DNA of 8,687 nt from an uncultured Lachnospiraceae bacterium (GTDB taxonomy: Bacteria > Bacillota > Clostridia > Lachnospirales > Lachnospiraceae), in NCBI GenBank assembly GCA_949935685.1, contig CATLGN010000051.1:1-8687 (forward strand). Direction: 5' to 3'. The notes below the pieces were generated by a model that saw only the letters and a program-made list of their open reading frames with translations, made no database searches and was not told the origin of the DNA. How positions within the stretch are numbered: the first letter of the stretch is position 1; every line of letters starts with the position of its first letter. The translations under genes and the position numbers were made by a program. Shown here one piece after another: positions 2,346 to 4,287 of this stretch.

Positions 2346-2378
2346 AAAAGGATTCGCTATTGTACAGCGAATCCTTTT
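2346..2378. terminator. Bidirectional terminator between convergent genes
   Basis: There is a perfect 13-bp inverted repeat (AAAAGGATTCGCT at 2346-2358, AGCGAATCCTTTT at 2366-2378) with a 7-base loop. The stem starts with A-run and ends with T-run, so it can terminate in both directions. Its right arm and loop overlap the last codons and stop of the minus-strand ACT gene, whose stop codon is at 2357-2359. Confidence 0.88.
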
Positions 2379-2761
2379 GCTTTCAGATGATTTTCCACTT
2401 CAAAAATATCTTCCGTATGCAGGATAATTACGGGCATTCCGGTATCTCTGTTAAAGCACAGATACGTATAGTCCACGTTGATATTGCCGTCCAGAAGTTC
2501 CAGCAGCAGATGATTCAGACTGCCCACTTCATCCGCCATCTCCACGCCGATAATATGCGTTGATTTGCACAGATAGCCGCTTGCCTCCAATATTTGGATC
2601 GTCTTTTCCGTGTCGGAAACTATCATGCGCACGACGCCGTATTCGGTGCTGTCATTGGTGACAGAACCGAGTATATTAATATTTTCTTTCTGCAAAAGGG
2701 ATGTAATATCCTGAAAAGTCCCTTTTTTGTTCTCTGCATAAATGGATACCTGTTTTAACAT
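2357..2761 (-). CDS. Tandem ACT-domain amino-acid-sensing protein
   Basis: The 134-residue protein is made of two ACT domains and nothing else. Domain 1 (about 1-66) opens with QVSIYAENKKGTFQDI, containing the usual N-K-x-G ligand loop at 11-14; domain 2 (about 67-134) has the matching turn ADEVGSLNHLL at 76-86. ACT domains bind amino acids at domain or subunit interfaces, so this is a soluble sensor or regulatory subunit. No catalytic or DNA-binding part is present, and the ligand and partner are unknown. The ATG has AGAGGGG about 6 bases upstream. It is divergent from the AEC/AGCS transporter genes, which makes amino-acid-linked regulation of transport a reasonable inference but not shown. 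Confidence 0.87.
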   Translation of the reverse strand: MLKQVSIYAENKKGTFQDITSLLQKENINILGSVTNDSTEYGVVRMIVSDTEKTIQILEASGYLCKSTHIIGVEMADEVGSLNHLLLELLDGNINVDYTYLCFNRDTGMPVIILHTEDIFEVENHLKAKGFAVQ

Positions 2762-2781: not shown

Positions 2782-2810
2782 TTTATACTTTATCTATATT
2801 TATAACACAA
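2782..2810 (-). promoter_or_regulatory. Promoter candidate for the ACT gene
   Basis: On the minus strand TTGTGT (2810-2805) and TATAAA (2787-2782) are separated by 17 bases, with the ATG about 20 bases further on. The -35 is weak (3 of 6) and the -10 good (5 of 6). A palindrome CAAATTTG at 2808-2815 overlaps the -35. Confidence 0.5.
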
Positions 2811-2836
2811 ATTTGGTGATTGGTCATCTTTTTTCT

Positions 2837-2845
2837 GTTCTTGCA
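2837..2845. repeat. Left target-site duplication (9 bp)
   Basis: GTTCTTGCA here is identical in sequence and direction to 3248-3256, on the other side of the foldback element. Exact 9-bp direct repeats at both edges of an inverted-repeat element are the signature of transposase-mediated insertion. Confidence 0.82.
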
Positions 2846-3247
2846 GGCACGACAAACGCATGAATGAACAAATTATGAACATAGCATAAAGGATAGAAAC
2901 GCAAAAAGTCTTGACAAGACTTCTTTTCCGGCAGGTGCACAACGTTCCAGCCGTACACCTTGCGGAGGGCATTAGCAGTTCTTACCGCTGTGCGACAACC
3001 CGCAATTTTCGGACAGGGACGTCCGAAAAAGTCCGACCTGCGCCCGGATGGCTCATAGAGGACGGTTGCACGTCTGCCGGTATCCGCCGCCACAGCGGTT
3101 AGAACCGCTTATGCCTGTAGCCCGGTGTACGGCTGGAACGTTGTGCATCTGCCGGAATGATACTATACTGCATTGCAGACTTTTTCCGCCTCTATCCCGC
3201 TTAGTTTACGAAATGTTCATAGTTTGTTCATTCATGCGTTTGTCGTG
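2846..3247. mobile_element. MITE-like foldback element, about 402 bp, no transposase
   Basis: Nearly the whole element is one imperfect inverted repeat. Outer arms 2848-2882 and 3213-3247 match at 34 of 35 positions. Arms at about 2891-2911 and their partner at about 3178-3198 match at 18 of 21. Inner arms 2928-2959 and 3124-3155 match at 31 of 32. A further, weaker stretch (about 2960-2992 with 3091-3123) continues inward, including ACCGCTGTG/CACAGCGGT. The centre carries its own hairpin. A 9-bp direct repeat flanks it. The open frames inside on both strands are mirror images of each other because of the inverted repeat, have no ribosome site, and are not credible genes. It would need a transposase acting in trans. 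Which family moved it cannot be told from sequence alone; a structured RNA is the main alternative. Confidence 0.8.
3006..3029. other. Central hairpin within the foldback element
   Basis: TTTTCGGAC (3006-3014) and GTCCGAAAA (3021-3029) form a perfect 9-bp stem with a 6-base loop. A second GTCCGA at 3031-3036 could compete for the same left arm. The A-run/T-run ends give it a weak terminator look, but no T-run follows on the plus strand. Confidence 0.65.
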
Positions 3248-3256
3248 GTTCTTGCA
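3248..3256. repeat. Right target-site duplication (9 bp)
   Basis: This is the second copy of GTTCTTGCA. Joining left flank and right flank at one copy restores a continuous target whose local sequence CTGTTCTTGCAAACAG is itself a small inverted repeat (CTGTT/AACAG). The copy supplies five of the six bases of the -35 hexamer of the next promoter. Confidence 0.82.
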
Positions 3257-3280
3257 AACAGTCTGCCATTGGTGTATAAA
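3252..3280 (+). promoter_or_regulatory. Promoter candidate for the AEC-AGCS unit
   Basis: TTGCAA (3252-3257) and TATAAA (3275-3280) are 17 bases apart, about 60 bases before the preferred start codon. The -35 lies across the edge of the 9-bp duplication. A second, weaker set inside the foldback element (TTGTGC 3141-3146, 17 bases, TATACT 3164-3169) points the same way. Confidence 0.6.
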
Positions 3281-3339
3281 AGAGTGAGGCATTATCCGGG
3301 AGCGGTCCGGGTATGACAGGAAAAAATGTGAGGTATGAT

Positions 3340-4287
3340 ATGGACTTTTTTTATGTATTTGGCAAAATGGCGGAACTCTTTCTGATAATTATTATTGGAT
3401 ATGTCTGTTGTAAATGCGGCGCTTTCGGGAAAGAGGCGCGGCTGCATGTGACACGGCTTGTACTGCATGTGGCCATTCCCGGCGTGACGCTTGCCTCCGT
3501 GCTGACACAGGACGACCTGCCGGGGGCGGCGGAGATTCTGGGGCTGCTGGCGGTGGCATTTTCCAGTTATCTGATTCTGATCGGAGCGGCGTATATTGTG
3601 CCAAAACTTTTGCGGGTACAGGGCGCGGAAGTGGGAATCTACCGGTTTATGGTGGCTTTTGCGAATGTAGGGTTTATCGGGTATCCGGTAACACAGGCGA
3701 TATTTGGGGACCGGGCGGTTTTTTACACCTGTGTGTTCAATCTGCCGTTTAATTTTCTGGCTTTTTCCGTCGGCGTGATTTTTATTCAGAAAAGCGCGGC
3801 GGCAGGCAGTGCGCAGGAGGGGGCGGCAAAATCTGCCGTTACGTATAAGACATTTCTGACGCCCTGTCTGATTTCGTCGGTATTGGCGATTATACTGGCG
3901 CTGACCGGTTTGAAAGGACCGGCGTTCATAGGGGATACCTGCACCATATTGGGAAATATTACGACGCCGGCAGCGCTTCTGGTCATCGGTTCTTCCCTCG
4001 CGGAAATGCCGGTAAAGGAGATGTTCAGCAACGGCAAAGTATACGTTTTTGCCCTGTTTCGCCTGCTGATACTGCCCCTTGCCGTATATTTTATTTACCG
4101 GGGATTTGTGCGGGACCCCCTGCTTTTGGGAGAATGCGTCATTATTTCCGCGATGCCGGTTGCGACGAATGGAACGATGCTCTGTCTGCAGTATAAGGCT
4201 GACGAGAAACTGATGGCGCAGGGAACTTTTATCACGACGCTGGCTTCTCTTGTGACGATTCCAATGCTGGCCATGCTGTTCACATAA
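3340..4287 (+). CDS. AEC family transporter (auxin efflux carrier-like)
   Basis: This is an integral membrane protein of 315 residues, the usual size of bacterial Mem_trans (AEC) carriers, with about ten hydrophobic segments in two blocks around a hydrophilic loop (about 151-171). Recognisable family features are the first segment ending in a G-Y turn (GY at 20-21), FANVGFIGYP (107-116), the second-half helix NITTPAALLVIGSSLA (206-221), AMPVATNG (271-278) and FITTLASLVTIP (297-308). Known members export auxin in plants or malate and other organic acids in bacteria; the substrate here is not predictable. I chose the ATG at 3340, with GTGAGG 6 bases upstream and a start directly before the first membrane segment. 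An ATG at 3313 with a more distant GGGAG would add nine residues. No terminator separates it from the AGCS gene. Confidence 0.9.
   Translation: MDFFYVFGKMAELFLIIIIGYVCCKCGAFGKEARLHVTRLVLHVAIPGVTLASVLTQDDLPGAAEILGLLAVAFSSYLILIGAAYIVPKLLRVQGAEVGIYRFMVAFANVGFIGYPVTQAIFGDRAVFYTCVFNLPFNFLAFSVGVIFIQKSAAAGSAQEGAAKSAVTYKTFLTPCLISSVLAIILALTGLKGPAFIGDTCTILGNITTPAALLVIGSSLAEMPVKEMFSNGKVYVFALFRLLILPLAVYFIYRGFVRDPLLLGECVIISAMPVATNGTMLCLQYKADEKLMAQGTFITTLASLVTIPMLAMLFT

Follow-up and report, generated by a model that had tools for sequence, protein, structure and literature searches.

The window, that is, the whole analyzed stretch of 8,687 nucleotides, is contig C51 of an uncultured Lachnospiraceae genome assembly (2.0 Mb, 361 contigs, 69% complete). 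Between an ACT-domain gene (2357–2761, minus strand) and a Mem_trans transporter gene (3313–4287, plus strand), a nearly palindromic foldback unit of 400 bp was found at positions 2848–3247; it was assigned to neither strand, and its boundaries were set by the arms, the fold and the limits that it shares with its relatives in the same genome. The unit is built of three nested pairs of inverted arms. The terminal pair comprises the left inverted repeat with the tip CACGACAAACGCATGA (2848–2890, plus strand) and the right inverted repeat (3205–3247, minus strand), both located by an arm search (43 nt, 91% complementary). It is followed inwards by a pair of 21 nt at 2891–2911/3177–3197 (86% complementary) and a pair of 67 nt at 2926–2992/3091–3157 (85% complementary). 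Folded as single-stranded DNA, the element reaches −136.6 kcal/mol versus −58.2 kcal/mol (sd 3.8) for 100 shuffled sequences (z = −20.5), none of which folded equally well. The element contains only small ORFs; one of these, of 89 aa, was searched against Pfam without a match. The first-pass annotation, made from the sequence before this analysis, had described a near-complete foldback without genes, and the three arm pairs, the fold and the Pfam result confirm this. The short length, the absence of a transposase gene and the terminal arms of 43 nt are those of a MITE.

Both edges carry GTTCTTGCA on the plus strand, at 2837–2845 and 3248–3256, and the two copies match exactly, so that the earlier reading of a 9-bp direct target-site duplication also stands. 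Two extra G residues (2846–2847) separate the left copy from the tip and could be due to erosion or imprecise joining. They had been counted as part of a 402-bp unit with an altered left tip; the residues are present, but they lie outside the element, because its relatives share 2848–3247 as a unit, the matches of most full-length relatives starting and ending exactly at these positions or no more than 3 bases away. As a separate observation, overlapping minus-strand ORFs with the repeated peptide FQSTPSTQRET were seen at the left end of the contig (29–290), which suggests a CRISPR-type repeat array, as read from the ORF list only.

A search of the own genome with the element gave 91 matches, the palindromes matching on both strands. 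From the match listing, 41 distinct places including the window copy were counted, together with one fragment of 32 bases. The copies are mostly intergenic, and the full-length relatives are 71–82% identical to the window element. Pairing of inward-facing tips in the fetched stretches yielded 34 elements of 67 to 427 bp, including 13 shorter derivatives of 67–324 bp. Several of them have kept perfect 10-bp duplications, for example TTTTAGCCTG flanking a 152-bp derivative. Duplications of at least 8/9 identity flank 9 of 34 elements in the own genome and 18 of 29 from other genomes, and were found in none of 500 rounds in which flanks were swapped between elements. The clean duplications of the family are 9 or 10 bp long, and the 9 bp reported at first thus describe the window copy and not the family as a whole. 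The dispersal of copies over about 40 other places in the genome, with different flanks and target-site duplications, is as expected for a MITE.

The ACT-domain protein was found in six of nine same-genus genomes. Five of these loci were aligned, and the sixth, whose protein is only 29% identical, was left out. Two of the five genomes (G002 and G007) run through the target without interruption and match the joined flanks of the window (TATATACACC...TTTGCAAG...ATAAAAAT), and the remaining three are too diverged at the target spot for a clear alignment. No tip pair was found in the 260-nt stretch upstream of the ACT-domain gene in any of the five aligned loci. A single tip-like 12-mer with two mismatches (CCGTTTGTCGTT) was noted in G002 (locus L367) about 160 nt upstream of this gene; it lies away from the target position and is a chance match or a remnant.

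The tips of the element were also found on insertion sequences in other genomes. In genome G012, an insertion sequence of 1252 bp is present twice, with the tips CACGACAAACGC.../CACGACGTACGC... and duplications of 9–10 bp. Its 373-aa protein (locus L127) is an ISAs1-family transposase (NF033564, 355 bits; PF13808 and PF01609) with the domains DDE_Tnp_1 and DDE_Tnp_1_assoc. A second element, L171 of G075, encodes a transposase 70% identical to that of L127, and its two tips agree with each other in 16/16 bases and equal the 16-base tip of the window element, as would be expected of an ISAs1 derivative. ISAs1 elements generate duplications of 8–10 bp, and both the 9 bp of the window copy and the 9–10 bp of its relatives fall into this range. 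When genome contigs (one genome per species) were scanned for a 20-base tip pattern, at least 108 stretches were returned; the hosts among the matches listed (80 named) were Lachnospiraceae, other Clostridia, MAGs labelled Treponema and Spirochaetes, and others. The own genome, at 69% completeness and in 361 contigs, yielded no ISAs1 transposase, nor did an NF033564 scan of a 199-genome phylum sample that includes it reveal a helper, so its helper is inferred. Comparison with solved structures gave one weak match, to a designed barrel, and no ISAs1 relative. Since the tips equal those of ISAs1-family insertion sequences, the element is likely moved by an ISAs1 transposase. Genome G025 contains two further ISAs1-family elements, L172 and L175, with the tips CAGGATAACCGC and CACGGAAATC, respectively; in both, the duplication is 9 bp long and a promoter-like site lies at 19 nt, and a tip of the window type lies just outside the left end of L175.

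Dispersed copies, flanking duplications, uninterrupted sites in two relatives and transposase-coding elements with matching terminal repeats were the observations by which the first-pass annotation proposed that its MITE reading be judged. All of them were obtained, and the interpretation of the window element as a mobile MITE is supported.

In order to describe the target sites, both flanks of every element were scored for TTGACA-N16..18-TATAAT; the promoters discussed here are thus predicted from sequence and not mapped. In 26 of the 34 own elements, the −35 box of the best site starts 19–21 nt outside a tip, and in 30 of them it starts at 17–22 nt. When offsets of 1–70 were considered and ties were shared, 26.3/34 fell at 19–21 versus 1.5 expected under uniform placement and a maximum of 4.8 in 200 flank shuffles, which preserve base composition and not dinucleotides. 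For the elements of other genomes, 78 of the 109 loci of the tip scans were dropped for lack of a partner tip and one duplicate was removed from the 31 pairs. The remaining 30 gave 19.3/30 at 19–21 versus 1.3 expected, with a shuffle maximum of 4.4. Eleven of the 30 are of insertion-sequence size (1244–1281 bp), and the peak lies at 19 or 20 in eight of these (two as ties); a single MAG labelled Treponema sp. contributes three MITEs, which also peak at 20. The locus L260 peaks at 64 with offsets to 70, and at 20 when offsets are limited to 60.

In the window copy, the site on the left faces the ACT-domain gene (2799–2827, minus strand) and consists of the −35 box ATGACC (2827–2822), a spacer of 17 and the −10 box TATAAA (2804–2799). 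Its −35 box starts 21 nt from the tip, or 19 nt without the two extra G residues. With a score of 9, it ties with a divergent site at offset 5 (3252–3280, plus strand; TTGCAA-N17-TATAAA; score 9), the −35 box of which overlaps the right duplication. The own elements L006 and L008 have promoter-like sites 19–20 nt away on both sides, as if they had inserted midway between divergent promoters.

With the −35 box as the sole criterion for the side, matches to TATAAT peaked at a spacer of 17 (3.81/6) versus 1.4–2.6 at other spacers. The aligned target sites resemble a textbook promoter, including a partial TG before the −10 box, although part of the −35 enrichment in this profile follows from the way in which the side was chosen. 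The duplicated 9–10 bp show little base preference, at most 0.23 bit. Among elements with a perfect duplication and a recognizable −35 box, a 10-bp duplication went with offset 20 in 11 cases and a 9-bp duplication with offset 19 in 5, so that duplication length tracks offset in 16/19 and deviates in 3/19. The distance from the −35 box to the promoter-near end of the duplicated target is thus constant at 9 nt. Of 13 elements counted, 11 have their transposase gene oriented with its 3′ end towards the promoter; this count includes L265, which lacks a complete transposase. The elements L171 and L256 appear to be one insertion. ORF starts 45–250 nt downstream of the targeted promoter were modestly more frequent than on the other side, both in the own genome (19/28 vs. 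9/22) and elsewhere (12/20 vs. 6/20).

A further 40 ISAs1-type loci were collected by their transposase from plasmids, phages, viral contigs and relatives. Repeats together with a perfect duplication made 21 of them usable, and 19 were dropped for want of both. The best promoter lay at 18–21 in 12 of the 21, versus about 1.2 expected; nine of these twelve score at least 8, and three are weak (6.5–7.5, one only as a tie). Six of the nine well-scoring elements have tips unlike those of the window element and come from Methylosinus, Pseudomonas, a streptococcal satellite phage, a viral contig and G025 (two). The other 9 of the 21 have no best promoter at 18–21. The two G012 insertion sequences are likewise not at the 19–21 spacing, and one of them lies within an ORF. 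In a small control of six elements with another tip type, five had no best promoter at 19–21 and the sixth gave a seven-way tie that includes 20. Among 11 loci of remote transposase hits, two (L311 and L315) had usable repeats and duplications. The best promoter of L315 lies at 23. L311 (G441) has a 9-bp duplication and a promoter-like site of score 11 at 18; it is a remote hit of the ISAs1 model below the family cut-off and is therefore no clean negative control. From this locus, promoter targeting may reach beyond ISAs1 proper.

The core of the element (2960–3123, plus strand) matches the TwoAYGGAY RNA (RF01731) with 87.6 bits at a gathering cut-off of 43, and it is the sole Rfam match in the window at the gathering threshold. 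Like this RNA, the core has two hairpins with GGA in the loop. The first, CGGACAGGGACGTCCG (3010–3025, plus strand), has a loop of the type CANGGAYG in 28/30 own-genome cores, and its stem changes on both sides between cores (GGAC/GTCC, GGGC/GCCC, GTGC/GCAC). In the second (3040–3054, plus strand), the GGAYGG pattern is present in 29/30. The core occurs in 25 of the 34 own tip-paired elements, and in total 54 copies of TwoAYGGAY above the cut-off were found in the own genome. The RNA was also matched in four of nine same-genus genomes (one with 55 matches) and in 45 of 299 genomes of the family.

Among 21 full-length copies, the outer stem of the core has 59 mispairs that would be G-U on the RNA strand versus 28 that would be so on the other strand (p = 0.0012, uncorrected, an optimistic value given the kinship of the copies and the testing of four zones). 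The other three zones are not skewed in this way (36 vs. 51, 39 vs. 33 and 31 vs. 25). The earlier statement that no RNA-level selection on one strand is evident is therefore borne out in the arms, whereas the outer stem of the core departs from it. Similarly, the MITE had been set against a structured RNA as its alternative. The MITE half of this was right, but there is no either/or, as the MITE includes a sequence that belongs to a structured RNA family.

The own genome encodes CsrA, and an ORF beside csrA is presumably FliW. With GGA in hairpin loops and csrA in the host, the core has the features of a CsrA-binding RNA, and it is predicted to bind CsrA if transcribed. TwoAYGGAY is listed as probably an RNA in the accessible part of Weinberg 2010 (PMC2864571), and in 2014 it was placed among proposed CsrA-binding RNAs as a candidate CsrA sponge (PMC4333381). 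The targeted promoters point away from the element and so do not transcribe the core; the RNA strand has the same direction as the promoter in 6 elements and the opposite direction in 11, which is no clear bias.

TwoAYGGAY is not a MITE of the window type everywhere: the tip pair was found at none of 29 loci from 29 other genomes, and a scan of these loci for repeats plus duplications gave only three weak pairs. By a simple reading of ORFs, 11 of the 29 lie between convergent genes. A second tip type, GATTCGGGTGTC, forms pairs around a TwoAYGGAY core at 6 of the 109 loci examined, and no transposase for it was found in a viral-contig scan (0 hits). Cores between the other tip pair, GATTCGGGTGTCAAAAG, were seen at L379, L402 and L405 (G002), L385 (G006), L156 (G208) and L150 (G093). 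Some of these elements have short flanking repeats such as CTATAAG, and they represent a second type of MITE around the same RNA family. As far as the sequences indicate, mobile elements of more than one kind seem to have acquired this RNA sequence. In the accessible literature on TwoAYGGAY, no description of it as transposable-element cargo was found. Divergent TwoAYGGAY pairs (minus then plus, starts 308–505 nt apart) were also observed on contigs C53, C22, C160, C97 and C65 of G000, the pair on C65 including one ISAs1-type element, and similar pairs occur in G017, G070 and G240.

Taken together, the locus is most probably a MITE with ISAs1-equal tips and a TwoAYGGAY core, which is likely moved in trans by an ISAs1 transposase and is predicted to target sites upstream of sigma70 promoters. 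The transposase family, the target just upstream of promoter-like sequences and the TwoAYGGAY apex were all missed in the first-pass annotation. Most tip-paired copies, like ISAs1 transposons elsewhere, sit 19–21 bases ahead of a promoter-like sequence, so that promoters are the likely target of the transposase. In the proposed mechanism, an ISAs1 transposase acting in trans would pick targets just upstream of sigma70 promoters. Since the duplicated target has its promoter-near edge at 9 nt from the −35 box, the element would start at 19 after a 9-bp duplication or at 20 after a 10-bp one. The promoter could be read through bound RNA polymerase, which is favoured here, or by contact of the transposase with the promoter DNA itself. 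The upstream edge of bound RNA polymerase should fall near the promoter-near edge of the duplicated target.

A possible but less favoured alternative is that the transposase recognizes DNA resembling a promoter and RNA polymerase plays no part. The boxes like TTGACA and TATAAT are the conserved features of the targets, and in principle a transposase could read them directly; on the other side, the −35 box, the partial TG and the −10 box at a spacer of 17 are conserved as in real promoters, which is not decisive, and there is little preference within the duplicated 9–10 bp. Improbable is the explanation that insertion is random and selection then leaves or favours only the copies at about −55, where a tip is harmless or helps transcription. 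Losses elsewhere are plausible because the own copies are old, as their 71–82% identity indicates, and mostly intergenic, and because one G012 insertion sequence sits in an ORF. However, the peak is about 3 bp wide and recurs with different interiors, in complete insertion sequences and in other genomes, and selection would not explain why duplication length tracks offset; with a peak this narrow and coupled to duplication length, selection alone is unlikely. That the locus is a fixed regulatory or structured RNA and not a mobile element, to which the TwoAYGGAY core with its paired stem changes and constant loops and the cis-regulatory type of the family in Rfam would point, is scarcely credible given the dispersed copies, duplications, uninterrupted sites and transposase-coding relatives, and given promoters that point away from the element.

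For the mobile MITE, several consequences would follow. Its spread would multiply possible CsrA-binding RNAs and is one route by which an orphan RNA family such as TwoAYGGAY can become abundant in a genome, and hosts with many copies would allow the CsrA-sponge idea of 2014 to be tested. Provided that the targeting is true, each insertion marks a promoter, which would provide natural promoter tags in uncultured genomes, and promoter seeking can be tested directly by comparing insertion beside naked and polymerase-bound promoters. More speculatively, ISAs1-family transposases across several phyla might use polymerase-bound promoters as landing pads (about −45/−55), independently of the TnGBS group, and in this gut genus they might have become a vehicle that spreads dozens of CsrA-binding cores to places beside promoters, possibly resetting the CsrA regulon by transposition.

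The window element was compared with known systems. It resembles ISAs1 insertion sequences in its matching tips, its 9–10-bp duplications and the promoter-like spacing of 19–20 nt that many of them have, but differs from them in lacking a transposase gene, in being a nearly complete palindrome and in its RNA core. Like prokaryotic MITEs of the Correia type, it is short, inverted-repeat, non-autonomous and dispersed. According to the accessible part of a paper on such MITEs (PMC10969869), certain members provide promoters or have links to small RNAs; fixed-distance promoter targeting is not described in that part, and "ISAs1" is absent from the text. No report of promoter targeting by ISAs1 was found in the literature on ISAs1 and on promoter targeting, as far as accessible (including PMC9208149, PMC8763236, PMC3281130 and PMC9330008), most subscription papers and ISfinder lying outside the search.

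A further likeness is to TnGBS, ISLre2 and ISKra4, which, according to the accessible part of PMC3942029, have Mutator-like transposases (p-MULT) and target sigmaA promoters, inserting upstream of them with a fixed distance of 13–17 bp to the −35 box; most p-MULT 3 elements are oriented with the right end towards the promoter. The main text of that paper makes no mention of "ISAs1". The window element is not a member of this group, its presumed transposase being of the ISAs1 family and the peak lying at 19–21 nt. The two systems share a fixed promoter distance and a preferred orientation, with the right end towards the promoter there and the 3′ end of the transposase gene here, but they differ in the transposase family and in the distance itself. 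If a second, unrelated family of transposases also targets promoters at a fixed distance, promoter seeking would be a convergent strategy and no peculiarity of the Mutator-like elements.
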